Of a stretch of 51,636 bases of DNA, positions 9,882-44,315 are shown piece by piece. The stretch's first letter is position 1; every line of letters starts with the position of its first letter. The translations under genes and the position numbers were made by a program. This stretch comes from Paludibacteraceae bacterium (GTDB taxonomy: Bacteria > Bacteroidota > Bacteroidia > Bacteroidales > Paludibacteraceae). The stretch lies in the NCBI GenBank assembly GCA_017447875.1, contig JAFSMP010000005.1, positions 1 through 51,636 of the forward strand. The letters are read 5' to 3'. Under the pieces are notes generated by a model, which was given only the letters and a program-made list of their open reading frames with translations, was not told where the DNA came from and did not search any database.

Positions 9882-9899
9882 CCGTTAAATCGTTAAATT
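9882..9899 (+). repeat. Octamer word array, yhcH-glgB spacer
   Basis: CCGTTAAATCGTTAAATT: two copies of (C/T)CGTTAAA-type words directly after the yhcH stop, with further CGTTAA words in the last codons of yhcH. It matches the array before obgE. Confidence 0.5.
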
Positions 9900-9907
9900 A
9901 TTATACC

Positions 9908-11977
9908 ATGGCGACAAAGAAAGTAGTAGCTCCGAAACATCTGAAGATCGTAGAGCGGGATCCGTATCTGCAACCGTACGAGGGTGCATTGCAGGCACGT
10001 GCAGACTATGCGAAGAATAAAGAAGCAGAGATCACAGGCGGTCAACCGCTCAGTGCATGGGCTTCGGGATACCTGTATTTCGGATTACACCATACCAAAG
10101 ACGGATGGGTGATGCGTGAATGGGCACCGAACGCGACGGCTATCTATATCAAAGGTGATATGAACGGATGGCAGAAAGATGAAGCATATCGTCTGCAACC
10201 GGTTGGTAACGGCGTATGGGAAGCCAAATTGCCGGAAGAGGCACTCCATCATGAGCAGTTATACAAACTGCTGGTAGAGTGGAACGGCGGTTACGGAGAA
10301 CGTATCCCGAGTTACGTGCGCCGCGTGGTGCAGGATGAGCAGACGAAGATCTTCTCTGCGCAGGTCTGGAACGAACCTGAATACCAATGGAAGAACAAAG
10401 GTAAGAAATTCAAAGAGAAAGGCGGTCTCTACATCTACGAATGCCATATCGGTATGTCTTCGGAACAGGAGAAAGTCAATTCTTACGAGGAGTTCCGTCG
10501 CGACGTGCTACCGCGTATCGATGCACTGGGCTATAACTGCATCCAGATCATGGCCATTCAGGAACACCCGTACTACGGCAGTTTCGGATACCATGTGAGC
10601 AATTTCTTTGCTGCCAGCAGTCGTTTCGGTACGCCGAATGAGTTGAAGGCACTGATTGACGATGCCCACGGAAGAGGAATCCATGTGATCATGGATCTGG
10701 TGCACAGCCATGCGGTAAAGAACGAGTTGGAGGGTCTGGGTAATTTCGACGGAACGGGTTACCAGTACTTCCATGACGGAGGTCGTCGTGAGCACCCGGC
10801 ATGGGACAGCTTGTGCTTCAACTATGGCAAGAACGAAGTGCTGCATTTCCTGCTGAGCAACTGTAAGTTCTGGTTGGATGAGTACGACTTCGACGGATTC
10901 CGTTTTGACGGTGTGACGAGTATGATCTACCGCAGTCACGGTTTGGGAGAGGACTTCAACGGTTATCCGAGTTATTTCAACGGCAACGAAGACGGCGATG
11001 CACTGATGTACCTGACCTTGGCCAATAAGGTGATTCATGAGGTGAAACCCGAAGCGATCACGATAGCCGAAGAGATGTCGGGAATGCCGGGTCTGGCTGC
11101 GGCTATTGAGGATGGCGGTGTCGGTTTCGACTATCGTCTGGCAATGGGTATTCCGGATTTCTGGATCAAGTATATCAAGGAAGTGAAGGACGAAGACTGG
11201 AAAGCCGGTCATATCCTGTACGAGATGACCAACCGTCGTGAGGACGAGAAGACGATCTCGTACGCCGAGAGTCATGATCAGGCACTGGTAGGCGATAAGA
11301 CGATCATCTTCCGTCTGGTAGATTCCGACATGTACTGGCATTTCGAGCACGGACACTCCACCTATATGGCCGACCGCGGTATCGCGCTGCATAAGATGAT
11401 CCGACTGGTAACGGCATCCACCATCAATGGCGGATACTTGACCTTCATGGGTAACGAGTTCGGTCATCCGGAGTGGATCGATTTCCCGCGTGAGGGTAAC
11501 GGATGGAGTTATAAGTACGCCCGCCGTCAATGGAGTCTCGTGGACAACCCCAACTATTTCTTCGCAGACCTCAACCGATTCGATGAGAAGATGATTCATC
11601 TGCTCAAGCAACATATCCTGACGCAGAATCCGACGGCAGAGGAGAAGAAATACAATGTAGGCAAGCACCTGCCATGGGTGATGAAATGGTGGGACAACGA
11701 AGGTGACCAGGTAGTGGCTTACTCCCGTAACGACCTCCTGTTCATCTTCAACTGGAACGGTCAGAAGTCCTTCACCGACTATGGCATGCTCGTTCCGGAA
11801 GGCAAGTACAAAGTGGTGCTGAATACCGACGCGAAAGAGTTCGCCGGCTTCGGTCTGGCGGATGACAGCGTAGAGCACCTCACGCAATACGATCCGCTGT
11901 ACGAGAAAGACGGCAAGGGATGGTTGAAGATGTACCTGCCGGCACGCAGTGCAGTGGTATTACAAAAAATAGACTAA
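9908..11977 (+). CDS. glgB: 1,4-alpha-glucan branching enzyme (GH13)
   Basis: 689 residues. It creates alpha-1,6 branches in glycogen by moving oligoglucan segments. A CBM48-like N-terminal domain (MREWAPNATAIYIKGDMNGW, ~65-90) precedes the GH13 barrel. The barrel shows the nucleophile Asp in DGFRFDGVTSM (~334), the acid/base Glu in IAEEMSG (~388) and the transition-state Asp in ESHDQAL (~455). The C-terminus is an all-beta domain. The form is the shorter, eukaryote-like branching enzyme common in Bacteroidota. The stop is followed after 1 nt by the start of the thioredoxin-like gene, so translation is probably coupled. No other glg genes are in the window. Confidence 0.95.
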   Translation: MATKKVVAPKHLKIVERDPYLQPYEGALQARADYAKNKEAEITGGQPLSAWASGYLYFGLHHTKDGWVMREWAPNATAIYIKGDMNGWQKDEAYRLQPVGNGVWEAKLPEEALHHEQLYKLLVEWNGGYGERIPSYVRRVVQDEQTKIFSAQVWNEPEYQWKNKGKKFKEKGGLYIYECHIGMSSEQEKVNSYEEFRRDVLPRIDALGYNCIQIMAIQEHPYYGSFGYHVSNFFAASSRFGTPNELKALIDDAHGRGIHVIMDLVHSHAVKNELEGLGNFDGTGYQYFHDGGRREHPAWDSLCFNYGKNEVLHFLLSNCKFWLDEYDFDGFRFDGVTSMIYRSHGLGEDFNGYPSYFNGNEDGDALMYLTLANKVIHEVKPEAITIAEEMSGMPGLAAAIEDGGVGFDYRLAMGIPDFWIKYIKEVKDEDWKAGHILYEMTNRREDEKTISYAESHDQALVGDKTIIFRLVDSDMYWHFEHGHSTYMADRGIALHKMIRLVTASTINGGYLTFMGNEFGHPEWIDFPREGNGWSYKYARRQWSLVDNPNYFFADLNRFDEKMIHLLKQHILTQNPTAEEKKYNVGKHLPWVMKWWDNEGDQVVAYSRNDLLFIFNWNGQKSFTDYGMLVPEGKYKVVLNTDAKEFAGFGLADDSVEHLTQYDPLYEKDGKGWLKMYLPARSAVVLQKID

Positions 11978-11978
11978 T

Positions 11979-12527
11979 ATGAGAAAGTATCTTTGGATCA
12001 TAGCCGCGGCCCTATTGATGGTAGCATGCGGTAAGCCAACGGCAGAACAGACGACAGAAGAGCAGGAATCCCAGGAGGCGCAAGAGCAAGTAGCGGAACA
12101 AGCACCGGAAGCGGAGGCAGACTCGACGGTCTATATCGACATCACCGGTGTGACGCCTACCGGTAGTGAGTTGTCCTTAAGCAGTCTGGTAGGTCAGACG
12201 GACTACGTGCTGATTGATTTCTGGGCATCGTGGTGCGGTCCTTGCCGCCGCTTTGTGCCGGTGCTCAAAGAGATCTATGCGTCGCAACCGGAAGGGCATC
12301 TGCAGATTCTCAGTTGTTCGGTGGATCAAGATGTGATGGCATGGCAGGTAGCGCTGAACGAAGAACAGATGCCTTGGCCGCAGATGCGGGAAGATGCCGA
12401 TCATAAGTGTTCGGACAAGTATAAGGTCCAGTTCATTCCTCATACCGTCTTGATTAATAAAGAAGGTAAGATCGTGGCGGTGAATCCGGAAGAACCGGAG
12501 CTGGAGGAGATACTGCTGGGAGAGTAA
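11979..12527 (+). CDS. Thioredoxin-like lipoprotein (TlpA/ResA type)
   Basis: 182 residues. Lipoprotein signal with lipobox LMVAC and Cys17, an acidic Gln/Glu/Ala linker (~20-48), then a thioredoxin fold with active site WCGPC at residues 85-89 and the cis-Pro in FIPHTVLI. Such proteins reduce disulfides or mature haem proteins in the periplasm. The specific partner is unknown. It sits 1 nt after glgB and 15 nt before gpmI, in a metabolic operon with which it has no obvious functional link. Confidence 0.9.
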   Translation: MRKYLWIIAAALLMVACGKPTAEQTTEEQESQEAQEQVAEQAPEAEADSTVYIDITGVTPTGSELSLSSLVGQTDYVLIDFWASWCGPCRRFVPVLKEIYASQPEGHLQILSCSVDQDVMAWQVALNEEQMPWPQMREDADHKCSDKYKVQFIPHTVLINKEGKIVAVNPEEPELEEILLGE

Positions 12528-12542
12528 ATCAACAAAGTAGAT

Positions 12543-14075: not shown

Positions 14076-14077
14076 AA

Positions 14078-14112
14078 AAGAAAGCGACTCGCAAGAGCCG
14101 CTTCTTTTTTTC
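14078..14112. terminator. Bidirectional Rho-independent terminator
   Basis: AAGCG-A-CTC, loop GCAA, GAG-C-CGCTT with one internal mismatch. T-rich tracts follow on both strands. It ends gpmI on the plus strand and the small lipoprotein gene on the minus strand. Confidence 0.85.
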
Positions 14113-14144
14113 AGGTCTAATACCTTGATTGAGCAACAAGTTGA

Positions 14145-14477: not shown

Positions 14478-14482
14478 CGCTG

Positions 14483-14514
14483 CAAAATTACTGCTTTTTT
14501 TGCATATGTGCAAA
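14483..14514 (-). promoter_or_regulatory. Promoter of the small lipoprotein
   Basis: Minus-strand TTTG (14514-14511) followed by CACATATG, 20-nt spacer, TAATTTTG (14490-14483). Its -33 element is one half of a palindrome whose other half is the -33 of the divergent promoter. Confidence 0.8.
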
Positions 14515-14550: not shown

Positions 14551-15393
14551 ATGGCTAAAAAGGGTATTTTTGACAAATCTGACCTCAAATTTGTGGGTAT
14601 AAACATCGGAATTGCCGTAGTGATAGGTATTGTGATCATCGTCAGTCTGGTGATTTGGTTGCGTGGATACACGCAACACGGTGTCGAAGTGGTGGTGGAA
14701 GACGTGCGTGGGATGGTAACTGCAGAAGCGGAACCGATCTTAGCTTCGAACGGTCTGCATATGGTGGTAGTCGATTCTACCTATTCGGACAAGGTGCCCT
14801 TCGGTACTATTGTCGATCAATCCCCCAAACCGGACAGTCATGCCAAGCATGGTCGTGCGGTATATGTAGTGATCAATGCATCGGGTAAACGGCAAGTGAC
14901 GATGCCTAACCTGCAGGATATGAGTTACCGTCAGGCGGAGACAACCTTACGCGGCATGGGACTGATCGTGGATTCGATTTATGAGTACGAGCCTTCGGCT
15001 TTCCGCGACTTGGTGCTGGATGTGAAGATGGAGGATACGATCAGTATCCAACCGGGGGATAAGATCGCAGTCGGTACGACGGTGCGTCTGGTAGTGGGTT
15101 TCGGTAAAGGAACGGAGATGGTCGAAGTACCGACACTGGTAGGTCTGACCTTACGGGATGCCCGTAGTCTTTTGCTCAGTCGCCGATTGACCGTAGGTGC
15201 AGTGACGTACGACGAAGAAGAGACCCAGGCAATCGATGAGGCCGAGAAAAAAGAATATTATATCTACCGCCAGACGCCCGATGCCGGTGAACGGATCTTG
15301 GAAGGAGAGACGGTGTCGTTACGCCTCTCGACGGATATCGAGAAAGTGGTAAGCGGTGGAGGAAGCGATAACGAGGATGGAAACTGGTTCTGA
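14551..15393 (+). CDS. PASTA-domain membrane protein
   Basis: 280 residues from the ATG at 14551. An upstream in-frame TTG is less likely. A single membrane helix (15-37) is followed by three PASTA-like repeats outside the membrane, with the typical VP-L-G--L-DA/EA--LL signature in MPNLQDMSYRQAETTLRGMG and VPTLVGLTLRDARSLLL. PASTA domains bind peptidoglycan or beta-lactams in other bacteria. No kinase domain is attached. It sits directly upstream of rluD, whose start overlaps its end by 17 nt. Confidence 0.9.
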   Translation: MAKKGIFDKSDLKFVGINIGIAVVIGIVIIVSLVIWLRGYTQHGVEVVVEDVRGMVTAEAEPILASNGLHMVVVDSTYSDKVPFGTIVDQSPKPDSHAKHGRAVYVVINASGKRQVTMPNLQDMSYRQAETTLRGMGLIVDSIYEYEPSAFRDLVLDVKMEDTISIQPGDKIAVGTTVRLVVGFGKGTEMVEVPTLVGLTLRDARSLLLSRRLTVGAVTYDEEETQAIDEAEKKEYYIYRQTPDAGERILEGETVSLRLSTDIEKVVSGGGSDNEDGNWF

Positions 15394-16411
15394 TCTGCTA
15401 TTCGAACGCTGGCGGTGTGAGGTCGATAAGGGACAAGGCAAGGAGCGCGTAGATAAGTACCTTGCGGAGCACATGACCAACACCAGCCGCAACCGTATCC
15501 AAACGGCTGCGGATGCCGGTAACGTGTGGGTGAACGGAGCCGCGGTGGCATCCAACTACCGCGTCAAACCGGGTGATATCATTCAGGTGTTACTGGATCA
15601 TGAGCCGCATGACTTCACCATCACGCCGGAGAATATCCCGCTCCATATCGTGTATGAAGATGAGGACCTGCTGGTGGTGAATAAACCGGCCGGTCTGGTC
15701 GTTCATCCGGGTCACGGCAACTACGAGCATACGCTGCTGCATGCCTTAGCATGGCATTTTGAGCATTCAGTATTCAGTCATCAGCATTCAGACATCAACA
15801 ATCCGGATATAGGACTCGTTCATCGCATCGACAAAGACACGTCCGGATTATTGCTGATTGCCAAGACGCCGGAGGCGAAGGCGAACCTGGCCAAGCAGTT
15901 CTTCGACCATACGACTGAACGCACCTATAATGCCTTGGTTTGGGGTACGTTCAAAGAAGACAGCGGTACCATCGAAGGGGCACTGGCTCGTGATAACCGC
16001 GACCGAACGATCTACCGCGTATGGGATATAGAAGAATGTCCGCAGGCCAAAGAAGCCGTCACGCATTGGCGGGTGCTGGAGCGTTTCCCGTATGTGACGC
16101 TGGTGGAATGTAAGTTGGAGACCGGCCGTACGCACCAGATACGCGTGCATATGAAGCATATAGGCCATCCGCTTTTCTGCGACGACAAATACGGCGGATG
16201 CGAGATACTCAAGGGTCTTCGTACGCAGAAATACCGCCAGTATATCGAGAACTGTTTCGCGCTTTGTCCGCGGCAGGTGTTGCACGCGCGCACTTTGGGA
16301 TTTACCCATCCGCGTACGGGTGAACGGATGTTCTTCGACAGCGAGTGGCCGGAAGATATGACGAACTTGATAAATAAATGGAGAAACTATGAACCGAATA
16401 CTTTGGGTTGA
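15377..16411 (+). CDS. rluD: RluD-type 23S rRNA pseudouridine synthase
   Basis: 344 residues from the ATG at 15377, inside the end of the PASTA gene. An S4 RNA-binding domain (~20-65) precedes the pseudouridine synthase domain. The catalytic Asp152 lies in GLVHRIDKDTSGLL, and the C-terminal GRTHQIRVHMKHIGHP motif is present. In E. coli RluD modifies helix 69 of 23S rRNA. The segment encoded by 15762-15796 (HSVFSHQHSDI) is made of five heptamer words and looks slightly longer than in relatives I remember, just before the catalytic motif. Confidence 0.92.
   Translation: METGSDLLFERWRCEVDKGQGKERVDKYLAEHMTNTSRNRIQTAADAGNVWVNGAAVASNYRVKPGDIIQVLLDHEPHDFTITPENIPLHIVYEDEDLLVVNKPAGLVVHPGHGNYEHTLLHALAWHFEHSVFSHQHSDINNPDIGLVHRIDKDTSGLLLIAKTPEAKANLAKQFFDHTTERTYNALVWGTFKEDSGTIEGALARDNRDRTIYRVWDIEECPQAKEAVTHWRVLERFPYVTLVECKLETGRTHQIRVHMKHIGHPLFCDDKYGGCEILKGLRTQKYRQYIENCFALCPRQVLHARTLGFTHPRTGERMFFDSEWPEDMTNLINKWRNYEPNTLG
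15762..15796 (+). repeat. Five-heptamer word array inside rluD
   Basis: AGCATTC, AGTATTC, AGTCATC, AGCATTC, AGACATC in direct succession. Words 1 and 4 are identical. The same word family recurs in porX 720 bases downstream. Confidence 0.75.
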
Positions 16412-17927
16412 CGACGAGATTGATCTGTTGCAACCGTATATCATTTATCTCAAGAGCAAGGGTTACGAAGTGGTTACCGCTTCGAACGGTGAGGATGCGC
16501 TGGAAGTTTTCAGCCAACAGCATTCAGCCTTCAGTATTGTGTTCCTGGATGAGAACATGCCGGGCATGACCGGACTGGAGACGCTGCAAGAGATCAAGCG
16601 GATGCATCCGGAAGTGCCGGTGGTGATGATCACCAAGTCCGAAGAGGAACACATCATGGAGCAGGCGATCGGCGAGAAGATAGCGGATTATCTGATCAAA
16701 CCGGTCAATCCGAGTCAGATTCTGCTGTGTCTCAAGAAACATATCCATCAGCAGGCGATCGTCACTGAACAGGTGCAGCAGAACTACCGCCAGGAATGGA
16801 GCGACATCTCCTACATGATCGATACAGCCACAACGATCGAGGAATGGCAGGCTATCGAACGCACGCTCAGCAAATGGGATCTCGAACTGGAGAACAGTCC
16901 TATGCGTTCGCTCATTGACGACCAACGCACGCAGGCGAATGCGGCATTCAGCAAATGGATCGCGAAGAACTACGAGAACTGGTTTAACGGTGAGCGCCCT
17001 GTCATGTCTCCGGACGTGATGAAGCATTCGGTCTTCCCGTTGCTGGACAAAGGCGAGAAGGTGCTGCTATGCGTGATCGATAATTTCCGTTACGACCAAT
17101 GGAAGACCATCCAACCGCTCATCAGTGAGTTTTATACCATGCACACGGAAGAGCAGTATACGTCTATCCTGCCCACCGCTACCCAGTATGCCCGTAATGC
17201 CATCTTCTCGGGGCTGATGCCGCTGCAGATACAGCAGATGTTTCCGGATTTGTGGGTGGAAGAAGGGGATGAAGAGAGCAAGAACCAATACGAGAAAGAA
17301 CTCGTTCAGACCTTATTCGACCGGTATCGCCGGAAGGAGAGTTTCAATTATTGGAAGGTGAACGAGAGTGATTTCTGCGAAAAAGTCATCCGTGATCTGA
17401 AAGGCGCACAAGCCCCGTTGAATATCGTGGTGCTCAACTTCATCGACATGCTTTCGCATTCGCGTACGGAGAGTAAGATGATGCGCGAGTTGGCGAATGA
17501 CGAGGCGGCGTATCGAAGCCTGACGCTCAGTTGGTTCAAGCACTCGCCGACGTACGAACTGCTGCGTCGGGCTGCCGAATGGGGTTATACACTGGTGCTG
17601 ACCACCGACCATGGTACCACGCGTGTGAAGAATGCCGTGCAGATCATCGCGGACAAGAACACAAATACCAATATCCGGTATAAGGTCGGTAAGGCGCTCA
17701 ACTGCAATGTCAAATCGGTCTTCACTATCGATCAGCCCAAACGTGTCGGACTGCCGTGTCCCAACGTGAGCAGCAGTTATGCGTTCTGCACCGGTAGCGA
17801 TTTCTTCGCCTATCCGAATCAGTTCAACTATTATGCGCAGTATTACCGCAATACGTTCCAGCACGGCGGTATATCGCTTGAGGAGATGATCATTCCTTTG
17901 GTGACTTTGGTGCCCAAAGGACGTTAA
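16389..17927 (+). CDS. porX: T9SS regulator: response regulator with PglZ-type phosphatase-like domain
   Basis: 512 residues. The N-terminal receiver has the acidic pair D8-D9, phosphoacceptor D54 (VFLDENMPGM), Thr in MITKS and the conserved Lys in YLIKPVNP near 104. A helical linker leads to a PglZ / alkaline-phosphatase-like domain (IDNFRYDQW, NFIDMLSHSRTES, LTTDHGTTRVKNAV). This architecture is that of PorX, which with the kinase PorY controls T9SS in Porphyromonas. It overlaps the rluD stop by 23 nt. It fits the two T9SS cargo proteins in the window. Codons just before D54 are built from a heptamer word array, although receiver spacing is normal. Confidence 0.93.
   Translation: MNRILWVDDEIDLLQPYIIYLKSKGYEVVTASNGEDALEVFSQQHSAFSIVFLDENMPGMTGLETLQEIKRMHPEVPVVMITKSEEEHIMEQAIGEKIADYLIKPVNPSQILLCLKKHIHQQAIVTEQVQQNYRQEWSDISYMIDTATTIEEWQAIERTLSKWDLELENSPMRSLIDDQRTQANAAFSKWIAKNYENWFNGERPVMSPDVMKHSVFPLLDKGEKVLLCVIDNFRYDQWKTIQPLISEFYTMHTEEQYTSILPTATQYARNAIFSGLMPLQIQQMFPDLWVEEGDEESKNQYEKELVQTLFDRYRRKESFNYWKVNESDFCEKVIRDLKGAQAPLNIVVLNFIDMLSHSRTESKMMRELANDEAAYRSLTLSWFKHSPTYELLRRAAEWGYTLVLTTDHGTTRVKNAVQIIADKNTNTNIRYKVGKALNCNVKSVFTIDQPKRVGLPCPNVSSSYAFCTGSDFFAYPNQFNYYAQYYRNTFQHGGISLEEMIIPLVTLVPKGR
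16512..16539 (+). repeat. Four-heptamer word array inside porX
   Basis: AGCCAAC, AGCATTC, AGCCTTC, AGTATTG in succession, ending 8 bases before the phosphoacceptor codon. It shares the word AGCATTC with the array in rluD. Confidence 0.65.
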
Positions 17928-19500: not shown

Positions 19501-19570
19501 ATAAAAAGGGAGAAAAAATGCAAAAAAAGTGCTTTTTTTTGTTAAAAAGTGAATTTTTTTTCAAAAATTA

Positions 19571-20007: not shown

Positions 20008-20595
20008 ATGTTGAATATTATCTTATGCGGTGCACCGGGTAGCGGCAAAGGTACGCAATCGGCTTTCATCGCACAGAAATACGGCGTACAGCATCTCTCG
20101 ACAGGAGATGTACTTCGTGCAGAGATCGCCAAAGGAACAGAGTTGGGTAAGCAGATTGATGCGCTCATTTCTCAAGGTAATCTCGTACCGGACGAGATGA
20201 TGTACGGCGTGATCGAGAACTATATCGCCGGTCTGCCTGCAGATTGCAAAGGTACTATCTTCGACGGCTATCCCCGTACGGTCGCTCAAGCGCAGTCGCT
20301 GACAAAGATGTTAGCCAAATACGGCATGGATGCCATCATGATTGACCTGATGGTCGATGAGCAGTTGCTCATCCAGCGTCTTATCGAGCGAGGCAAAGTA
20401 AGCGGTCGTGCCGATGACAACCTCAATACGATCCGTCATCGCATCGCCGTCTATCACCAGCAGACCGAACCGATCGCCCATTATTACCTGCATCACGGTA
20501 ACTATTATGCCGTGAACGGTAACCACACCATGGCGGATGTGTTCCTGCAGATCATGCGTATCTTGGACGGATACATTAAGTCGTTAAACCGTTAA
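20008..20595 (+). CDS. adk: Adenylate kinase
   Basis: 195 residues from the ATG at 20008. An in-frame TTG lies 6 nt upstream. It converts ATP + AMP to 2 ADP. The P-loop GAPGSGKGT is at 8-16, with HLSTGDVLRAEIAKGTELG, FDGYPRT and a short lid (RGKVSGRADDN) without the zinc-finger extension. The last residues (SLNR) and the stop codon are encoded by an octamer word array that runs on to obgE. No clear promoter is seen in the 80 nt upstream, so it may depend on readthrough from the HU gene or on a weak site. Confidence 0.95.
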   Translation: MLNIILCGAPGSGKGTQSAFIAQKYGVQHLSTGDVLRAEIAKGTELGKQIDALISQGNLVPDEMMYGVIENYIAGLPADCKGTIFDGYPRTVAQAQSLTKMLAKYGMDAIMIDLMVDEQLLIQRLIERGKVSGRADDNLNTIRHRIAVYHQQTEPIAHYYLHHGNYYAVNGNHTMADVFLQIMRILDGYIKSLNR

Positions 20596-20612
20596 TTCGT
20601 TAAACCGTTAAA
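20581..20612 (+). repeat. Four-octamer word array across the adk stop
   Basis: TCGTTAAA, CCGTTAAT, TCGTTAAA, CCGTTAAA. The adk stop TAA lies in the second word and the obgE ATG follows 5 nt after the fourth. Confidence 0.8.
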
Positions 20613-20617
20613 CTGTA

Positions 20618-31156: not shown

Positions 31157-31777
31157 ATGATTATGATGCGTTACGAGAAAGAGGATTTGCAAGAGGCACT
31201 GCGGGTGTTGAGGAACGGAGGGATCATCGTCTATCCGACGGATACCGTATGGGGAATCGGCTGCGATGCGACGAATGCGGAGGCGGTGAAACGCATCTAT
31301 GCATTGAAGCAACGCGAAGACAGCAAGTCGATGTTGGTGCTGTTGGACAGCCCTGCCAAACTGAACTATTACGTATCGGATATTCCGGATGCAGCATGGG
31401 CGTTATTGGAAGCTTCTGATGTTTCGGAAAACTCCGATTATCCCGATGAATCCGGGAATAAACCGCTCACCATCATCTATCCCAACGCGCGGAACTTGGC
31501 TCCAAACCTGATAGCAGAAGACGGCAGTATCGGTATCCGTATCACCCATGAATCGTTCAGCAAAGCATTGTGCGAACAGTTACGGCATCCTATTGTATCC
31601 ACAAGTGCCAATATCAGCGGACATCCTGCGGCACGGTTCTACGCAGAGATAGAACAAGCGATCTTGGACAGAGCAGACTATGTATGCCTCTTCCGAAGGG
31701 ACGATGACTGCCCTGCCGAACCCAGTAGTATCATCAAGATTCATGCGGATGGCACGTTTAAAATAATACGCCCATGA
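31157..31777 (+). CDS. tsaC: L-threonylcarbamoyladenylate synthase (TsaC/Sua5/YrdC family)
   Basis: 206 residues from 31157. ATGs at 31163 and 31166 are equally plausible and would lengthen a leader that is otherwise only a few nt. It makes threonylcarbamoyl-AMP for the t6A37 tRNA modification. The YrdC fold shows YPTDTVWGIGCDA, KQREDSKSMLVLL, GSIGIRI and IVSTSANISGHPA. The segment SDVSENSDYPDESGN (about residue 86 onward) looks inserted relative to relatives I remember, and its codons are the 9-nt word array at 31423-31456. It overlaps the next gene by 4 nt. Confidence 0.92.
   Translation: MIMMRYEKEDLQEALRVLRNGGIIVYPTDTVWGIGCDATNAEAVKRIYALKQREDSKSMLVLLDSPAKLNYYVSDIPDAAWALLEASDVSENSDYPDESGNKPLTIIYPNARNLAPNLIAEDGSIGIRITHESFSKALCEQLRHPIVSTSANISGHPAARFYAEIEQAILDRADYVCLFRRDDDCPAEPSSIIKIHADGTFKIIRP
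31423..31456 (+). repeat. Nonamer word array inside tsaC, related to the one in ttcA
   Basis: Words AAACTCCGA, TTATCCCGA, TGAATCCGG, preceded by TTCGG. By eye 27 of 34 positions match 34850-34883. Confidence 0.7.
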
Positions 31778-33045
31778 CCTTACGAAAAAAACAGCAATTA
31801 TGGTACATCGGAGCGGACCTTATCAGCAGTGAGTTGGTATGGTTAAGTTTTCTGGCCTTCCGATGGATGGTGTATGAAGGACACGTGAAACTACTGGAAG
31901 ACGTGCTCGTTCCTGCATTCAGTTTCTGGCGGCCGTTAGTGATCTATCCCATCGTCTGTCTGATGGTGTATTACTTATCCGGTTATTATCTCCGACCTCT
32001 GCAAAAACCCCTCTGGCGGGAGTTCTTACGCACCTTCATCAGTGCCGGCATCATCGCGTTGGTGTTCTTCTTCTTCATCATCATCGATGATCCTACGGAA
32101 AACTATCAACGGTATCTGGTGTCGTTAGGTACACTTTTCGGTCTTCAGTTCGTACTCAGTTACATCCCGCGTCTGATCATCACCCTACTCTCCCGTCGTC
32201 GCGGCATCATGCGGACGACGGTGGTGCATTCGATGCAAGAAGCGGAAGGGTTGAAGGCAGGCGAACAAGACGAAGTGATTATTGACCTGCCGAAAGAGTA
32301 TACGGATCGGCAGTTATACGAACTGATCGCACAATTGTACCCGCTTATGTGCGAGATCAGTATGATCCCGCGTGTGTACGACATGCTCACAGGTGCGGCA
32401 CGAATCGGTTTTATCGACCGCCCTTCGCTTGTTCGTATCACCGAGTACCACATGACCGATGCGGAATTATGTATCAAACGTGCTTTCGACATCGGTATGG
32501 CCGCTATCGGATTGCTGCTTCTCTCCCCGCTGTTCGGTTTGATCGCTTTGCAAGTGAAACTATCCTCCCAAGGACCGGTTTTCTATAGTCAGGAACGTGT
32601 CGGTTTATACGGTATACCGTTCCGTATCTATAAGTTCCGCACGATGATCGATCATGCGGAGTCAGACGGTGTGCCGCATCTGACCAAAGACGATGATCCG
32701 CGTATCACGAGACTCGGTCACTGGTTGCGCAAATACCGCCTGGACGAACTGCCGCAGTTATGGAATATCTTACGCGGCGATATGTCGATTGTCGGACCGC
32801 GTCCCGAACGCCCTTATTTCATTAATCAGATTATGAAAGAGGCACCGTACTACTGCCTGCTGTACAAAGTACGACCGGGTTTGACCAGTTGGGGACCCAT
32901 CCGCGTTGGTTACACCGATACGATGGAGAAGATGATCGAACGCCTCAATGCCGATATTGTCTATGTGGAGAACATGTCTATCCTGCTGGATATGAAAATC
33001 ATGTTTTACACCATCGGTGTTATCCTGCGAGGCAAAGGGAAATAA
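31774..33045 (+). CDS. Polyprenyl-phosphate sugar-phosphate transferase (bacterial sugar transferase, WcaJ/WbaP type)
   Basis: 423 residues. The N-terminal third has about four membrane helices, followed by a degenerate central region. The C-terminal ~190 residues are the bacterial sugar transferase domain: membrane-entering helix KRAFDIGMAAIGLLLLSPLF, then VFYSQERVG, FRIYKFRTM, RKYRLDELPQLWNILRGDMS and VGPRPERP. Such enzymes load the first sugar on undecaprenyl phosphate for O-antigen, A-LPS or exopolysaccharide. T9SS cargo is anchored to A-LPS in known systems, so a link to the surface proteins here is possible but unproven. It is coupled to tsaC by ATGA. Confidence 0.9.
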   Translation: MTLRKKQQLWYIGADLISSELVWLSFLAFRWMVYEGHVKLLEDVLVPAFSFWRPLVIYPIVCLMVYYLSGYYLRPLQKPLWREFLRTFISAGIIALVFFFFIIIDDPTENYQRYLVSLGTLFGLQFVLSYIPRLIITLLSRRRGIMRTTVVHSMQEAEGLKAGEQDEVIIDLPKEYTDRQLYELIAQLYPLMCEISMIPRVYDMLTGAARIGFIDRPSLVRITEYHMTDAELCIKRAFDIGMAAIGLLLLSPLFGLIALQVKLSSQGPVFYSQERVGLYGIPFRIYKFRTMIDHAESDGVPHLTKDDDPRITRLGHWLRKYRLDELPQLWNILRGDMSIVGPRPERPYFINQIMKEAPYYCLLYKVRPGLTSWGPIRVGYTDTMEKMIERLNADIVYVENMSILLDMKIMFYTIGVILRGKGK

Positions 33046-33072
33046 AGGTTATAGGTGAGAGGTTATGGATTA
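33045..33072 (+). repeat. Four-heptamer word array at the sugar transferase-xseB junction
   Basis: AAGGTTA, TAGGTGA, GAGGTTA, TGGATTA. It begins on the last base of the sugar transferase stop, and the xseB ATG (33065) spans words three and four. Confidence 0.65.
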
Positions 33073-33229
33073 CGATGAGAAAATAAAACGGGCAGAGGCT
33101 ATTATCGCACAACTGGAGCAAGCCGAAGCAATCGGTATGGACGAATATAAACGTCTGGCCTCCGAAGCTACGGCACTGCTGCAACAATGCAAAGCGGATC
33201 TACAGGCAAGCCAGTACGGAAACGAGTAA
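33065..33229 (+). CDS. xseB: Exodeoxyribonuclease VII small subunit, very short
   Basis: 54 residues. The sequence MDYDEKIKRAEAIIAQLEQA...EYKRLASEATALLQQCKADL is all-helical and follows the XseB pattern (Y-E-I---E-I---LE, then L---A--L---C---L). XseB subunits decorate XseA to degrade single-stranded DNA. The partner gene xseA is not in the window. Its 3' end overlaps the 3' end of the convergent menA by 30 nt. Its start codon is embedded in the heptamer array. Family assignment is by pattern only, and the protein is shorter than most members. Confidence 0.7.
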   Translation: MDYDEKIKRAEAIIAQLEQAEAIGMDEYKRLASEATALLQQCKADLQASQYGNE

Positions 33230-34042
33230 GGTGGAGAACATCAGCACCGGCATCTGGATGTCCAAATGCTCGTCATGCGACCATACGAACCACAGATGCC
33301 AAGCCCATACGGGCAATACAAGAAGCGTCCACCAATGACCGTATAACACGAAGATACTCAGACAAACCGCTAACAGGCAGGAATGGTAGACACGTCCGCC
33401 TTTCTCACCCAACAGACTCGCTAAGGTTCGCTTGCCGTGCTTGATATCATTCTTCATGTCACGGATGTTATTAAGGTTCAGCACCCCTACGCACGGCAGA
33501 CCGATGGCAACACCGCTCCAGAAGACATCCCACGTCAGCGTTTGTACTTGCAGGTAATACGCACCGCAGGTGCTCAGTAAGCCAAAGAAGAGGAATACTC
33601 CCAAATCTCCCAGCCCTATATACCCGTAACTATGCTTCCCTAAGGTGTATTTGATAGCACCGATAATCGCTAATGCTCCCAGTCCTAAGAACACCCAACT
33701 CTGATCGCAGTTCAGCGTACCGAACGCTGTCCAAATAAGTGCGATACCGCTGAACATAGACAGACCGATAAAGAGAATGATCATTCGCTGCATCTGCTTC
33801 ACCGTGATCGTTCCGCTTTGCAGTCCGTACGCTGCACGACCATGCTGGTCCGAATCCGTGCCTTTGAGCGCATCGCCCAGTTCGTTGCATAAGTTACTGA
33901 GGATTTGCAGACACAACGTCGTACATATCGCCAAACCGAAAACCGGCCAATGGCACCAACCGGCCAAACTGGTACCTAAGATAATACCCGATACCGATAG
34001 CGGCAAAGTGCGCAAACGCAAAGATTGTATATAAGGGGACAT
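33200..34042 (-). CDS. menA: 1,4-dihydroxy-2-naphthoate polyprenyltransferase
   Basis: 280 residues, UbiA superfamily with about eight to nine membrane helices. It attaches the isoprenoid chain in menaquinone synthesis. The first Asp-rich motif NELGDALKGTDSDQHGR is near 52-68, a second is in NLNNIRDMKNDIKHGKRT, and the N-terminus SLRLRTLPLSVSGIILG is typical of MenA. Other men genes are absent here. It is third in a unit with ttcA and a DMT protein, and its start codon directly follows a heptamer array. Confidence 0.93.
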   Translation of the reverse strand: MSPYIQSLRLRTLPLSVSGIILGTSLAGWCHWPVFGLAICTTLCLQILSNLCNELGDALKGTDSDQHGRAAYGLQSGTITVKQMQRMIILFIGLSMFSGIALIWTAFGTLNCDQSWVFLGLGALAIIGAIKYTLGKHSYGYIGLGDLGVFLFFGLLSTCGAYYLQVQTLTWDVFWSGVAIGLPCVGVLNLNNIRDMKNDIKHGKRTLASLLGEKGGRVYHSCLLAVCLSIFVLYGHWWTLLVLPVWAWHLWFVWSHDEHLDIQMPVLMFSTLLVSVLACL

Positions 34043-34070
34043 GGGTTACGGGTTATGGGTTACGGGTTAT
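34043..34070 (-). repeat. Four-heptamer word array between DMT gene and menA
   Basis: In gene sense the spacer is TAACCCG, TAACCCA, TAACCCG, TAACCC(A), with the DMT stop TAA as the first word start and menA ATG right after the last. On the plus strand it reads GGGTTAC/GGGTTAT twice, a word family also seen at 33045-33072. Confidence 0.85.
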
Positions 34071-34438
34071 TTGAAGCCAAAAACGAAATAGACGGCACCG
34101 ATGAGCAGGATGCATGCCACGACATGGTTCCAGCGTATCTGCATGTGAAAAGCCAGGGCGGAGAAGACAATGAAGACCACGAGGGTGATCACCTCTTGGA
34201 TCACCTTCAGTTGCATCAACGTGAACGGTCCGCCGTTGCCTTCAAAACCGATACGGTTAGCCGGCACTTGCAGGCAGTACTCAAAAAAAGCGATTCCCCA
34301 CGACAACAGGATGACGAAGATAAGGGGCGTAGCATTGGTGAAAAAGCCGGTCTGCTGCATCTTCAGATGCCCGTACCACGCCAGCGTCATAAAGACATTC
34401 GACGCTAAAAGCAATAAGATAGTGTATAATGCGTTCAT
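34067..34438 (-). CDS. DMT-family membrane protein (DUF486)
   Basis: 123 residues with four predicted membrane helices, matching the small DUF486 family related to drug/metabolite transporters. Typical segments are SNVFMTLAWYGHLK and SWGIAFFEYCLQVPANRIG. The transported compound is unknown. Four-helix members probably work as dimers. The start overlaps the stop of the ttcA-like gene (ATGA). Confidence 0.88.
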   Translation of the reverse strand: MNALYTILLLLASNVFMTLAWYGHLKMQQTGFFTNATPLIFVILLSWGIAFFEYCLQVPANRIGFEGNGGPFTLMQLKVIQEVITLVVFIVFSALAFHMQIRWNHVVACILLIGAVYFVFGFK

Positions 34439-35166
34439 TTGTTAGGTAAATATTCCGGTTTGATGTTGGTCATGGCTCCGAAGATCGAGTCCATGGCTTC
34501 GGGATTGAGGGCTTGGATTTGGGTGAGCAGATCCTTGGCTTTCTCGCGTGCACTAACGTGCTCAAAGGGACATAGTTTGGTCTGTTTCTCATACCCGCGC
34601 ATCTCAGCATAACGGATCAGATCTTTTTCCTCTATCAGGCACAAGGGACGGATGATCTGCAGCGGCATCTTCTCCATCTGTAGCATCGGCGGCATAGTAG
34701 CGAACGTCCCTTGATAGATCAGGTTCATCAGCAGGGTCTGCACCACGTCGTCCTTATGATGCCCGAAAGCGATCTTGTTGCATCCGAGTTCCTGCGCCAC
34801 ATTGAAGAGGGTCTTGCGGCGGTACCAGGAGCAGAGAAAGCACGGGTTATTCTGAATACTCCGATTATTCGGATTAATCGGAGCCTCTCCAATCTCCGTG
34901 TCACGGACGATAAGCGGCACTCCGGCTTCAGCGCAGAAGGATTCCAGATAACGGAGGTCCGTATGGTAGTCGCGTTCTTTCACGCGCACGTGCAGCGCGG
35001 TCACGCGAAAAGAAGGAACGTGTATACGCGCACGACGACCCAACAGTTCGGTTAACGCCAGGCTGTCCTTGCCTCCACTCAGACCAATCAAGATATGGTC
35101 GCCGTCGGCAATCAGTCCGTAGTCCGCGCACGCCTTATGAAAACGCTTCGTCAAACGGGCACGCAT
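34435..35166 (-). CDS. TtcA/TilS-type PP-loop tRNA-modifying ATPase
   Basis: 243 residues from the ATG at 35166. A GTG at 35199 lies almost on the predicted transcript start. The PP-loop SGGKDS is at 30-35. A CxxC pair (CFLC) and the following basic WYRR, then GHHKDDVVQTLLMN, match the TtcA group that makes 2-thiocytidine in tRNA with an iron-sulfur cluster. A third conserved Cys may be in LCPFEH. The exact tRNA target in Bacteroidota is less certain. The codons just before CFLC (PINPNNRSIQ) are a 9-nt word array related to that in tsaC. They also form a hairpin. Confidence 0.87.
   Translation of the reverse strand: MRARLTKRFHKACADYGLIADGDHILIGLSGGKDSLALTELLGRRARIHVPSFRVTALHVRVKERDYHTDLRYLESFCAEAGVPLIVRDTEIGEAPINPNNRSIQNNPCFLCSWYRRKTLFNVAQELGCNKIAFGHHKDDVVQTLLMNLIYQGTFATMPPMLQMEKMPLQIIRPLCLIEEKDLIRYAEMRGYEKQTKLCPFEHVSAREKAKDLLTQIQALNPEAMDSIFGAMTNIKPEYLPNK
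34850..34883 (-). repeat. Nonamer word array / hairpin inside ttcA-like gene
   Basis: Plus-strand words ATACTCCGA, TTATTCGGA, TTAATCGGA. CTCCGATTA and TAATCGGAG (34859-34883) form a perfect 9-bp inverted repeat with a 7-nt loop. The array is related to 31423-31456. Confidence 0.7.
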
Positions 35167-35203
35167 CTTCTCCAATTCTATCTGTTCCTTCGTTTTCACG
35201 GTA

Positions 35204-35235
35204 CAAAAGTACTGCTTTTTTTTCAATTATACAAA
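35204..35235 (-). promoter_or_regulatory. Promoter of ttcA-DMT-menA
   Basis: Minus-strand TTTG (35235-35232), 20-nt spacer, TACTTTTG (35211-35204). The extension is TATAATTG rather than CATAT. It diverges from the ychF promoter, with the two -33 boxes 5 nt apart. Confidence 0.72.
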
Positions 35236-35272: not shown

Positions 35273-35350
35273 CAGTCGCAAAGGTTTTTAATCGAGTGCA
35301 ATAATGCACGAGAAAAAACATTTGGCTTAGTCGCTAAGGTTAAATGAACA

Positions 35351-35378
35351 AATGGTAAATGATTAAATCGTAAATAAA
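35351..35378 (+). repeat. Degenerate heptamer words upstream of ychF
   Basis: AATGGTA, AATGATT, AAATCGT, AAATAAA, ending 3 nt before the ychF ATG. It is AT-rich and therefore the least certain of the arrays. Confidence 0.4.
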
Positions 35379-35381: not shown

Positions 35382-36488
35382 ATGTCTTTACAATGTGGAA
35401 TAGTGGGCTTGCCGAATGTGGGCAAATCGACCCTTTTTAATTGTCTCAGTAACGCCAAGGCACAGAGTGCCAATTTCCCCTTCTGCACCATCGAACCGAA
35501 CGTAGGGGTGATCACGGTGCCTGATGAACGACTCATCAAACTCGGTGAACTCTGTCATCCGGAGCGCGGTATCATCCCGACGACCGTGGAGATCGTGGAT
35601 ATAGCCGGTCTCGTGAAGGGTGCCAGTCAGGGCGAAGGACTCGGTAATAAGTTCTTGGCCAACATCCGCGAGACGGATGCCATCATCCATGTGCTGCGCT
35701 GCTTCGATGATGAGAACGTGGTGCATGTGGACGGCAGTGTCAATCCCGTGCGAGACAAAGAGATCATCGATGCGGAGTTGCAGTTGAAAGACCTGGAGAC
35801 CGTAGAGAGCCGTATCGCCAAGTGCGAGAAAGCCGCCAAAGCCGGTGGTGACAAGAATGCCAAACTGCAACTGGAGGTGCTGGTGAAATACCGCGAGGCG
35901 CTATCGCAAGGTAAGAATGCCCGTACAGTAGAGTTGGATAACAAAGACCAGGAACTTGCCGCCAAGGACCTGTTCCTGCTGACCAACAAACCTGTGATGT
36001 ATGTCTGCAATGTCGATGAATCCGCAGCTGTTTACGGTAATGCATACGTGGAGCAGGTGAAGGAAGCCGTCAAAGATGAGGATGCACAAGTGCTGGTGCT
36101 CGCTGCTAAGATTGAGAGTGAGATAGCCGAACTAGAGACCTACGAGGAGCGGCAGATGTTCCTGGAGGAGATCGGTCTCAAAGAGTCCGGTGTGAACCGT
36201 CTGATCAAAGCCGCATATGCGTTATTGAATCTCCGTACGTTCTTGACGGCCGGTAGCGACGAGGTACGTGCCTGGACGTTCAAGGCCGGATATAAAGCCC
36301 CGCAGTGCGCCGGTGTCATCCATACGGACTTCGAACGCGGCTTCATCCGTGCCGAGGTCATCAAATACGACGATTTCATCGCACTGGGCGGTGAGGCGCA
36401 ATGCCGTGCAGCCGGTAAACTGGCCACGGAAGGTAAGGACTATCTCGTGCAAGACGGCGATATTATGCATTTCCTATTCAATGTGTAA
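35382..36488 (+). CDS. ychF: Redox-regulated ATPase YchF (Obg family)
   Basis: 368 residues. The P-loop GLPNVGKST starts at residue 9, with the G2/G3 region PTTVEIVDIAGLVKGAS. The coiled-coil insertion lies around 130-200, and the C-terminal TGS domain ends in DYLVQDGDIMHFLFNV. It binds ATP rather than GTP in known members and is linked to the ribosome and the oxidative stress response. Its stop codon lies in the first word of a heptamer array leading to caxA. Confidence 0.95.
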   Translation: MSLQCGIVGLPNVGKSTLFNCLSNAKAQSANFPFCTIEPNVGVITVPDERLIKLGELCHPERGIIPTTVEIVDIAGLVKGASQGEGLGNKFLANIRETDAIIHVLRCFDDENVVHVDGSVNPVRDKEIIDAELQLKDLETVESRIAKCEKAAKAGGDKNAKLQLEVLVKYREALSQGKNARTVELDNKDQELAAKDLFLLTNKPVMYVCNVDESAAVYGNAYVEQVKEAVKDEDAQVLVLAAKIESEIAELETYEERQMFLEEIGLKESGVNRLIKAAYALLNLRTFLTAGSDEVRAWTFKAGYKAPQCAGVIHTDFERGFIRAEVIKYDDFIALGGEAQCRAAGKLATEGKDYLVQDGDIMHFLFNV

Positions 36489-36510
36489 GGTGTAAAATGT
36501 AAGGTGTATG
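36483..36510 (+). repeat. Four-heptamer word array spanning the ychF stop and caxA start
   Basis: GTGTAAG, GTGTAAA, ATGTAAG, GTGTATG. The ychF stop (TAA, 36486-36488) is in word one and the antiporter ATG (36508-36510) ends word four. The array is the entire spacer. Confidence 0.85.
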
Positions 36511-37503
36511 ATTGAAAGTTTGCTTTCATACGGATGGTGGGTAGCGGCGGTATTTATTATCGTCGGATTCATCGCCTTGGTTAAGGGCGCGGACTGGCTG
36601 GTGGACGGAGCTTCCGCAATAGCCAAACGGTTCGGTATCAGCGACTTGGTCATCGGCCTGACCGTCGTAGCGTTCGGCACGAGTATGCCGGAGTTTGTAG
36701 TGAATATGGTGTCGGTGGCGGAAGGTTCGACGGATTTGGCGCTCACCAATATCTTGGGTTCAAACATCATCAACACCTTCGTTATCTTGGGTCTCACGGC
36801 CCTTGTCTATCCGATTGCATCGCAGAAACGCAGCCGTGACTTCGATATCCCGATGTCTATCATCGCCGGTGTGCTGGTCTTCGTTTTTGTGGCGGTGCAA
36901 CTGCCTTTTGGCGAGGACGGACGCGGCGTCGGACGTATCGGCGGAGCGATCCTGCTGCTGATGTTCTGCTATTTCCTCTACAATACCTTCCGTCACGCCA
37001 AGGAGCATCCGGATGATAACGAGTTGGCGAATGAAGGCGTAAAAGAAATGACAGTTCATAGGGCCATTGCTTTGATGCTCGGAGGTTTGGTAGGACTGGT
37101 GGTAGGTGGCGAACTGATTGTAAAGAGTGCCGTGGACATAGCGACCCGTATGGGCGTGAGCGAAGCGGTCATCGGTCTGACTATCGTGGCGCTCGGTACG
37201 TCCTTGCCGGAACTGGCTACGTCGGTTATTGCGGCAGCCAAGCATAACAGTGATATCGCGATCGGTAATGTCTTCGGCTCGAATATCTTCAATGTCTTTT
37301 TCGTGCTCGCCACCAGTGCGACAGTTCGTCCGCTGCCGGCTTATGAGGGCATCGAACTCGATGCCTGCATGGCCGCCCTCGGCAGTATCATCGTGTGGCT
37401 GGCCATCAAAACCAACCATGAGCGCAAAGTCCAACGCTGGGCGGGAGCCTTACTTCTACTTGTGTACGGCGGATATCTGACGTATCGGTTGATGAACGTG
37501 TAA
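36508..37503 (+). CDS. Calcium/sodium antiporter (CaCA family, YrbG type)
   Basis: 331 residues with about ten membrane helices in two inverted halves. Each half has the alpha repeat: LTVVAFGTSMPEFVVNMVS..LTNILGSNIINTF and LTIVALGTSLPELATSVIA..IGNVFGSNIFNVF. The acidic residues in these repeats bind Ca or Na in relatives. Whether it moves Ca2+ or K+ against Na+ or H+ is not readable from sequence. It ends at a bidirectional terminator. Confidence 0.93.
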   Translation: MIESLLSYGWWVAAVFIIVGFIALVKGADWLVDGASAIAKRFGISDLVIGLTVVAFGTSMPEFVVNMVSVAEGSTDLALTNILGSNIINTFVILGLTALVYPIASQKRSRDFDIPMSIIAGVLVFVFVAVQLPFGEDGRGVGRIGGAILLLMFCYFLYNTFRHAKEHPDDNELANEGVKEMTVHRAIALMLGGLVGLVVGGELIVKSAVDIATRMGVSEAVIGLTIVALGTSLPELATSVIAAAKHNSDIAIGNVFGSNIFNVFFVLATSATVRPLPAYEGIELDACMAALGSIIVWLAIKTNHERKVQRWAGALLLLVYGGYLTYRLMNV

Positions 37504-43184: not shown

Positions 43185-43187
43185 GCC

Positions 43188-44315
43188 TTACAGTCTCTCT
43201 TTCGCTAACGCCATCGCCCGCTCGATAGTCGGCGCCATGTCATAGTATTTGTATTCCGCCAGACGACCGCCGAAAAGTACGTTGGATTCGGCATCTGCGA
43301 GCGTTTTGTATTGATTGTACAAGGCCGTATTCCGTGCATCGTTCACCGGGTAATAGGGTTCCATACCGGGTTGCCACTCCGTGCTGTACTCACGACTGAC
43401 GACAGTCTTGGGATTGTCATAGACCGCCTGGCCGAACGATTCAAAATGCTTATGCTCGATGATGCGGGTGAACGGTGTCTCGCGGTCGGTATAGTTAATG
43501 ACCGCATTGCCTTGCCGGTTCGGCGTGTCCAAAACCTCCGTCTCAAAACGCACCGTACGGTACTGCAGTTGACCGAAACGGTAGTCGTAGAACCGATCAA
43601 TCGGTCCGGTATAGACGATGGTATCTGCCAAGGCCGTCAGTTCGTTCCGTTCGGCAAAGAAATCACAGTTCAGACGGACGTCTATCCCCTCCAGCAGTTT
43701 CTCGATCAGCATATTGTAACCGCCGATAGGAATACCTTGATACGGGTCATTGAAATAGTTATTGTCATACACGAACCGCAACGGCAGGCGACGGATGATG
43801 AATGCCGGTAACTCCGTGCAAGGACGTCCCCATTGCTTCTCCGTATATCCCTTGATGAGTTTCTCGTAGATATCCCGCCCCACTAACAGCAAAGCCTGCT
43901 CTTCGAGATTCGCCGGTTCCCGGTCTCCAATCTTCAATTTCCAATCTTCAATCTGCTCGTTAATACGAGCAGCTGCTTCCTCCGGCGTACGAACACCCCA
44001 CATCTGATAGAAGGTATTCATGTTAAACGGCAGGTTGTACAGTTCGCCTTTGTAATTGGCGATCGGACTGTTGGTATAGCGGTTAAACGGCACCAGCCCG
44101 TTCACAAAATCCCACACGTCCTTATTGGCGGTATGGAAGATATGGGCACCGTAGGTATGCACATGGATACCTTCTATCTGCTCGCAATAGACATTCCCGC
44201 CCACATGCGGACGTTTGTCGATAACAAGGCATTGCTTACCGGCCTGCTTGGCATGGTAAGCGAAGGTGGCTCCAAAGAGCCCTGAACCTACTATCAGATA
44301 ATCGTAATGAACCAT
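43188..44315 (-). CDS. glf: UDP-galactopyranose mutase
   Basis: 375 residues from the ATG at 44315. A longer frame upstream runs through the promoter. The FAD-binding start YDYLIVGSGLFGATFA, HVGGNVYCE, HTYGAHIFHT and GYTEKQWGRPC are diagnostic. It interconverts UDP-galactopyranose and UDP-galactofuranose, so the cluster probably makes a galactofuranose-containing glycan. The segment QIEDWKLKIGD before EPANLEEQA is encoded by a heptamer word array and looks a few residues longer than in relatives I remember. It is the first gene of the cluster with its own promoter. Confidence 0.95.
   Translation of the reverse strand: MVHYDYLIVGSGLFGATFAYHAKQAGKQCLVIDKRPHVGGNVYCEQIEGIHVHTYGAHIFHTANKDVWDFVNGLVPFNRYTNSPIANYKGELYNLPFNMNTFYQMWGVRTPEEAAARINEQIEDWKLKIGDREPANLEEQALLLVGRDIYEKLIKGYTEKQWGRPCTELPAFIIRRLPLRFVYDNNYFNDPYQGIPIGGYNMLIEKLLEGIDVRLNCDFFAERNELTALADTIVYTGPIDRFYDYRFGQLQYRTVRFETEVLDTPNRQGNAVINYTDRETPFTRIIEHKHFESFGQAVYDNPKTVVSREYSTEWQPGMEPYYPVNDARNTALYNQYKTLADAESNVLFGGRLAEYKYYDMAPTIERAMALAKERL
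43927..43954 (-). repeat. Four-heptamer word array inside glf
   Basis: In coding sense AGATTGA, AGATTGG, AAATTGA, AGATTGG. As 14-mers the two halves differ at one position. Confidence 0.75.

Follow-up and report, generated by a model that had tools for sequence, protein, structure and literature searches.

A population of short degenerate tandem arrays was analysed in a 51,636-nt stretch of DNA (the whole of which is called the window) from a Paludibacteraceae bacterium (GenBank assembly GCA_017447875.1, contig JAFSMP010000005.1). An initial annotation of the window had listed eleven places, at gene junctions and within genes, with successive words of one construction and differing base sequence; all eleven strings were found at the positions given, and the pattern proved far above shuffled sequence and was not kept as ordinary protein sequence. 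The window is tentatively read as a sample of a genome-wide population of tandem arrays that are short (~20–60 nt), degenerate and mostly built of 7-nt units and that stand at permissive sites (gene junctions and tolerant loops within genes), in which ready-made arrays are copied between sites and whole units are gained and lost; this joint reading is held with slightly less than even confidence. Arrays occurred in excess, shared a vocabulary with species dialects, carried differing words at one orthologous site, had been replaced between near-identical flanks and had changed by unit steps, and one 35-nt family was fixed. From these observations we infer two processes, local unit steps and copying between sites.

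Genome-wide excess and placement of arrays

Tandem structure was scored by lag matching (match +1, mismatch -1.25) and compared with shuffles keeping codons in open reading frames (ORFs) and dinucleotides elsewhere. ORFs were mechanical calls, and "inside an ORF" denotes an ORF of 100 aa or more. The own-genome sample comprised 448.6 kb (the window and 20 further stretches), and comparison samples came from the genus (400 kb from 20 relatives) and the phylum (396 kb from 20 genomes). A merged census was made at lags 7–11 and score 12 with one matched shuffle per sample. Individual places in the window were tested at lags 7–11 against 20 codon- and dinucleotide-preserving shuffles of the window, the expected value being the number of segments per shuffled window.

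The own genome held 119 arrays (units of 7–11 nt) vs 1 in its matched shuffle. The genus sample was rich in arrays (77 vs 1 shuffled) and the phylum sample poor (12 vs 4). At score 11 lag 7 was dominant in the 448.6 kb (71 segments vs 0.6 shuffled), with excess also at lags 8 (24 vs 0.4), 9 (13 vs 2.0), 10 (13 vs 0.4) and 11 (14 vs 0.4) and none at lags 4, 5 and 6 (1 vs 0.6, 0 vs 0.6 and 1 vs 2.8). A chance pattern is ruled out by the matched shuffles, except at four of the eleven places.

Arrays lay inside ORFs (58 of 119), across an ORF end (36) or between ORFs (25), at densities of 132 per 100 kb outside ORFs vs 14.4 inside (~9-fold). Among the 61 non-coding arrays an ORF stop was overlapped by 35 (10.25 expected) and a start by 19 (11.5 expected), under a null that ignores the richness of arrays in stop triplets.

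One coding site with many words

The 7-nt array ATTCAGY at 15762..15803 (+ strand; 0.60 expected) is translated in an RluD-like pseudouridine synthase (15356–16411), in the loop before VHRIDKDTSG. Loci were parsed on both strands (110 of 110 for RluD); some unnamed and named loci are from the same genome, and loci are not all independent. Of the 110 loci, among which some genomes occur twice, 37 had an RluD loop of 10 aa and 73 one of 11–23 aa. Word-bearing loops measured 15–22 aa vs 10 aa for those without words, and the comparison with small in-frame elements made in the initial annotation was apt. The loop also hosts 8-nt units (L212) and 10-nt units (L194). Among 81 RluD sequences, 27 had no array, 47 had one of 19 word labels (assigned by eye, near-kin words included) and 7 were other or unclear. 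On a quick tree of these 81 sequences (built with the loop left out; 23 of the 78 inner branches are weak), the least number of changes was 42 for word labels (the 7 "other" sequences counting as a state) and 14 for presence. In an RluD-aligned scan of named genomes, the best 80 of 193 relatives were nearly all metagenome-assembled and titled Paludibacteraceae or (uncultured) Bacteroidales bacterium, with a ruminant origin named for many of them.

RluD blocks change en bloc at 1–4% flank difference. L188 and L208 carry unrelated blocks while 22 of 930 flank bases differ, none of them in the 324 before and the 17 after the loop. Unrelated blocks were also found in L190/L191, L189/L201 and L167/L185 (16, 24 and 37 differences in 930, respectively), and L159 and L217 (11 differences in 930) have an array in one and none in the other, L217 being array-free. 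The bases adjoining the loop differ as well in L189/L201 and L159/L217. A loop may also be retained, as L160 and L162 share an identical 54-nt loop despite 72 flank differences (7.7%).

Shared words and unit order

Arrays draw on a shared vocabulary with species dialects. Identical word pairs (any rotation or strand) among 63 own heptamer arrays numbered 46, vs 2.3 for random intergenic heptamers (500 draws, maximum 10) and 5.9 for letter-permuted words. Genome-wide searches were run with word patterns allowing up to 2 mismatches, and the reversed word served as control. GGGTTAY gave 37 matches in the own genome (control 0) and was present in 29 of 61 genus genomes, the own included (1 to 134 matches; control 1 to 13 in 8 of 61). 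CCATACA was present in 27 of the 61 and absent from 34 (88 matches in G043, 77 in G051; control 0 throughout), and ATTCAGY was present in 33. In the order sample GGGTTAY was found in 17 of 149 genomes (own included), the reversed control being itself abundant in a few (188 in G215). Word matches occurred on both strands. As to a grammar of the words, stop content, G/C skew and self-complementarity showed little beyond dinucleotide bias, heptamer self-complementarity being 0.42 vs 0.39 for permuted words. Among 135 array pairs less than 3 kb apart, 26 agreed within one mismatch (vs 18.2; p = 0.034) and 8 were identical (vs 4.6; p = 0.065), which hints at a spread of words to chromosomal neighbours. 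Separately, two genomes of other families in the order sample were seen to hold large heptamer families (ATTGGGY, 188 in G215; GGGTTAY, 127 in G267).

Unit order was shared as well. At score 20, order was common to 94 pairs of loci within the same genome, vs 61.6 in 60 unit shuffles (standard deviation 4.7, maximum 70). Around ACAAAGK matches in G271, G272, G273, G277 and G281, 18 of 20 excised segments had ~35 nt in common (consensus GAATGTACAAAGGGACAATGTACAAAGTACAAAGG), with 21 of the 35 positions lying within the ACAAAGK search pattern and 14 outside it. Copies of this 35-nt GTACAAAG family at unrelated loci keep one unit order and end sharply, and their flanks are mostly unrelated. A model built from the 18 copies gave 41 further matches at E up to 10, of which 22 fell below 0.001 and 11 of these reached the last model position; some matches are orthologous or the same locus, and loci are fewer than matches. 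L206, L182 and L208/L259 contribute their RluD loops to the 22. The RluD block of G272 fits the model at E 4e-5, with neighbouring units agreeing at 59%, and its flanks are 2.4% apart, too little for so much later point mutation within the block.

Replacement and unit steps in close pairs

Arrays were compared in syntenic stretches of close genome pairs picked because their RluD loops differ. After approximate de-duplication, 61 pair-sites were classed as replaced (26), indels (18), substitutions (11) or identical (6). With flanks 93% or more identical the numbers were 18, 12, 8 and 4 (42 pair-sites), and with flanks 96% or more 4, 8, 4 and 3 (19 pair-sites); RluD accounted for 6 of the 18 and 3 of the 4 replacements, respectively. 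When RluD was left out, 12 of 36 array pair-sites with flanks 93% or more were replaced vs 9 of 330 control segments. Controls were repeat-free segments with flanks 93% or more, drawn from 12 directed pairs in which 460 of the 804 segments attempted could be placed; replacement was seen in 6 of the 188 lying in ORFs and in 3 of the 142 elsewhere, and indels in 1 and 18, respectively. The class of sites replaced by non-array sequence includes 15-nt-period arrays missed by the detector. One replacement switched the unit too (GGTGAAA vs GATTCGAA; flanks 86.7–88.1%).

The contrast with ordinary microsatellites drawn in the initial annotation was half right, since whole-unit gain and loss occurs in these arrays too. 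Array indels inside ORFs measured 27, 21, 42, 21, 45, 21, 21 and 21 nt (8 of 8 multiples of 3), and 5 of the 6 in heptamer arrays were multiples of 21. Outside ORFs they measured 14, 6, 11, 2, 10, 8, 14, 21, 14 and 1 nt (2 of 10 multiples of 3); copy number changed by whole units, and some non-coding indels (1, 2, 6 and 10 nt) were not whole units. As separation grew from 1 to 5 units, identity between units dropped from 0.786 to 0.606. The drop exceeded the largest one simulated with a common template (0.085) and lay at the lower end of the range simulated for neighbour copying (0.18–0.38). A template common to all units is therefore disfavoured, with the caveats that the simulations are simple and that detection at lag 7 favours similar neighbours.

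Other places in the window

Taken one by one, the places called 9882, 15762, 20581, 34043, 34850, 36483 and 43927 in the initial annotation exceeded chance, and 16512, 31423, 33045 and 35351 did not. The initial annotation had described the array as the whole spacer of gene pairs, supplying stop or start codons. By reading, this holds at two junctions. At 34036..34069 (- strand; 0.05 expected) a 7-nt array (TAA-CCCRTAACCCRTAACCC-ATG) lies between the ORF at 34067–34438 and a UbiA-family gene (33200–34042); the junction reads TAA-CCCGTAACCCATAACCCGTAACCC-ATG on the minus strand, the array extends from the stop to the ATG that opens the following gene, and it belongs with the GGGTTAY family seen elsewhere in the own genome. 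At 36483..36508 (+ strand; 0.35 expected) the 7-nt array GTGTAAG contains the stop of a ychF-like gene and reaches the ATG of the next (36508–37503). The 8-nt array CGTTAAAY at 20576..20616 (+ strand; 0.00 expected) contains the adk stop (20593–20595) and fills the spacer to the Obg gene (20618).

These junctions vary among relatives. Upstream of the UbiA-family gene other words or none were read (8 of 20 relatives), and the stop stood at the same place in array-free L057, L062 and L066. Among 11 relatives at the 36483 junction, L009 had another array (AAATTGT), L013 had array-like words and nine had no visible array, with the stop at the same place in array-free L006–L008, L010–L012 and L014–L016. 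The stop is therefore older than the array at 34043 and 36483.

Translation in five genes had been proposed; the arrays of RluD, the TtcA-like gene and Glf beat chance, and the other two did not. A 9-nt TCCGAATAA-like array at 34848..34882 (- strand; 0.10 expected) is translated as part of the linker that precedes CFLC in a PP-loop gene (34435–35226), which we take to be TtcA-like; other words or none stood in this linker in relatives (read in 9 of 20). It falls in a 9-nt family (roughly TCnGAnTAn) found also at L022:5930, L024:477, L024:2980, L030:6121, L032:5808, L032:5903 and L036:19485, 4 of these 7 further own loci being inside ORFs. A 7-nt array at 43913..43954 (- strand; 0.05 expected) is translated in UDP-galactopyranose mutase (Glf, 43188–44396). 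The corresponding stretch was of equal length in 17 of the 22 loci parsed (of 26), the window included, and the array thus mostly overwrites there rather than inserts; the five others measured 29, 32, 34 and 39, and 74 in L111, which is a mis-parse (common length by another reading). The RluD, TtcA and junction comparisons with relatives, in which orthologous sites carry other words or none, rule out conserved ordinary protein sequence.

An 8-nt array (CGTTAAAT) lies at 9879..9898 (+ strand; 0.60 expected), right after the stop of a YhcH-like gene (9422–9877) and before an ORF at 9908. The four places not above chance alone, all on the + strand, are weak ATTCAGY-like 7-nt words at 16512..16539 within a response-regulator/PglZ gene (16389–17927; 8.65 expected), 9-nt-like words at 31423..31462 in a Sua5/YrdC gene (120 expected), weak RGGTTAY words at 33045..33076 after a sugar transferase gene (31774–33045; 14.7 expected) and weak TAAATGA-type words at 35336..35375 upstream of the ychF-like gene (113 expected). 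The words at 16512 (ATTCAGY) and 33045 (RGGTTAY) are known as arrays elsewhere in the own genome, which is a resemblance and not a test. A junction in G278 with downstream sequence starting ATGGATTACGA, as after 33045, carries a long ACAAAGK array.

Other repeats were noted in passing. A long 11-nt array (AACTTGTTCGG-like, ~nine units) occupies L030:10014–10111 (G000:C49). A 16-nt family with hairpin-like units (CTGACAGACCGTTnCA) occurs at L022:14917, L023:12441 and L036:3551, and in the G273/G276 pair occupies the position of the relative's array. Within the window, a repeat called by TRF at 44455–44516 is ordinary coding low complexity in the alanine-rich tail of the 44409–44975 ORF, and an AT-rich 20-nt repeat at 19523–19567 (AAAAAAGTGAATTTTTTTGC) could be promoter-like. 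Two near-equal ychF-region matches in one assembly (G045:C139 and G045:C28) perhaps reflect a strain mixture.

Proposed mechanism and alternatives

Within an array, slipped-strand pairing or within-array exchange would add or remove whole units, and within genes only frame-keeping steps, typically of 21 nt, would survive. Between sites, short ectopic gene conversion or template switching could copy ready-made arrays, a copied array overwriting the content of another permissive site or seeding a new one. Selection would retain copies where harm is small, and the words themselves would need no function. Copying is favoured because slippage poorly explains the shared words, the shared order and the degenerate blocks between flanks that are too similar for so much mutation. 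In its widest form, a genus-wide copy-and-paste economy of sub-60-nt words with no element-coded function, in which sister species differ in word and not in site, the proposal is rather doubtful. If true, loops and spacers would be overwritten so fast that sister species keep the site and not the word.

Several results weigh against copying as set out here. No copying event was seen together with its donor in the genomes compared, and the 35-nt model had no match below E 0.1 in the own-genome sample. At the strictest threshold (score 24) the excess of common unit order was slight (25 vs 18.2, maximum 25). In five genomes, identical word pairs made up 2.4% within vs 1.6% between genomes, a modest gap (p = 0.02), and at one mismatch within and between did not clearly differ (p = 0.21). 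In the close pairs, both flanks were usable for 89 of the 161 array instances, and the other 72 were dropped. The 18 replaced pair-sites stem from 11 distinct sites, several of which recur among the members of a single quartet; at G273:29256 (11-nt unit) the two sides carry related words, and in several cases the detector did not class the partner as an array. The case for fast replacement comes mainly from RluD, since pairs were chosen by RluD and at flanks 96% or more only 1 of 16 other pair-sites was replaced while 8 showed indels.

These last counts also fit plain heptanucleotide simple repeats, that is, local 7-mer slippage at each site followed by decay through point mutation, which is unlikely as the whole account and is still the most serious rival. 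Loops of heptamer size escape mismatch repair, and loss of repair is not needed, MutS_V (the only pathway member sought) having been found in the own genome. Slippage agrees further with the dominance of lag 7 and lack of excess at lags 4–6, whole-unit indels, the fall of unit identity with separation and the resident stop codons contained in junction words. It leaves unexplained the recurrence of words beyond random local heptamers (46 vs 2.3 pairs), the unit order common to separate loci and fixed in one 35-nt family, the unrelated degenerate RluD blocks between flanks ~2% apart and the block retained unchanged at 7.7% flank difference. Miniature mobile elements moved in trans by an enzyme (like cyanobacterial small dispersed repeats or REPINs), with the tandem structure as part of the element, would account for the sharp borders and fixed order of the 35-nt family at unrelated loci and for the in-frame lengthening of the RluD loop. 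Such elements are improbable as the general explanation. Unit order and length vary in the CCATACA family of G043 (20 loci) and the GGGTTAY family of the own genome (19 of 20 loci read, one giving no array), which rules out that all families are fixed elements and also weighs against the copying reading; the Glf array mostly overwrites (same loop length in 17 of 22 loci); and no clean target duplication was seen, though none was sought systematically, while array-free alleles exist (L217).

Exchange of loop and spacer alleles among cohabiting relatives by ordinary homologous recombination, with new words rare and arising elsewhere, is harder still to credit. The scatter of RluD words across the tree (42 changes or more), the ruminant source of many named relatives and the differing bases next to the loop in L189/L201 and L159/L217 agree with it, but in L188/L208 an imported tract would have to stop at the block edge, since the loop is preceded by 324 and followed by 17 identical bases, and neither 19 word labels at one site nor a vocabulary common to unrelated loci would be explained. 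Least probable is that the words serve as binding or regulatory sites under selection, a role suggested for TAACTGA arrays that lie upstream of Beggiatoaceae start codons (PMC4679880). The ~nine-fold higher density outside ORFs and the overlap of non-coding arrays with stops (35 of 61) and starts (19) would suit such sites; words differing among species at one site, matches on both strands and the 58 of 119 arrays inside ORFs would not. Copying combined with unit steps remains the preferred reading. Word change between near-identical relatives, together with an array outlasting 7.7% divergence, makes the mechanism of heptanucleotide repeats testable, as slippage alone predicts unit steps and copying predicts block replacement with a donor. 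It also suggests a route for in-frame rewriting of protein loops and gene spacers without a known transposon.

Comparison with known systems

The short tandemly repeated repetitive (STRR) sequences of cyanobacteria are degenerate heptamers at many loci, a likeness to the present arrays across different phyla; we know of no report of STRR word replacement at orthologous coding loops. Rickettsia palindromic elements are small, palindromic and placed in frame inside protein genes, and are longer than the arrays described here. The in-frame lengthening of the RluD loop is alike, whereas the heptamer words are no more self-complementary than permuted words.

The initial annotation knew of no description of this pattern in Bacteroidales, which was too strong: bacterial heptanucleotide arrays, reported to be over-represented among long simple repeats and including TAACTGA in five Bacteroidetes, are precedents (PMC4679880 and PMC4692102). 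No open-access paper titled on the pattern in Bacteroidales or Paludibacteraceae was among the matches listed. In Porphyromonas gingivalis a minisatellite lies within a miniature inverted-repeat transposable element (MITE); it is likewise a Bacteroidales tandem repeat, but is described as MITE-borne (PMC4596501).

Repeats have been surveyed across prokaryotes (PMC4060949), and heptanucleotides were the most abundant long simple repeat class in most genomes surveyed (Mrazek 2007, as described in PMC4679880 and PMC4692102). The same two papers name GGGAATC in Xanthomonas and GGGGAYT in Nostoc beside TAACTGA in Beggiatoaceae and the five Bacteroidetes, and slippage is proposed there, not shown, as the mechanism. 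In two xanthomonads arrays lay mostly between the same genes with much variation in length and sequence (PMC4692102). The arrays of the present genome resemble long heptanucleotide repeats in the predominance of the 7-nt unit, the many sites per genome and the degenerate units. As in the long-repeat class (units of 5–11 nt), the tandem repeats are longer than expected, with no excess at 5 and 6, and copy number changes by whole units. They differ from the accounts in PMC4679880 and PMC4692102, which as described concern one word or word type each, in the coexistence of many words and of 7–11-nt units. They differ also from long heptanucleotide repeats as described there in the placement of 58 of 119 arrays within ORFs and in the en bloc change of words at 1–4% flank difference. 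Cyanobacterial small dispersed repeats are very small, dispersed and possibly mobile (Elhai 2008, as cited by PMC3116915 and PMC2884548). Of the families described here, the 35-nt GTACAAAG family is similar to them, whereas in the CCATACA and GGGTTAY families neither order nor length is fixed.

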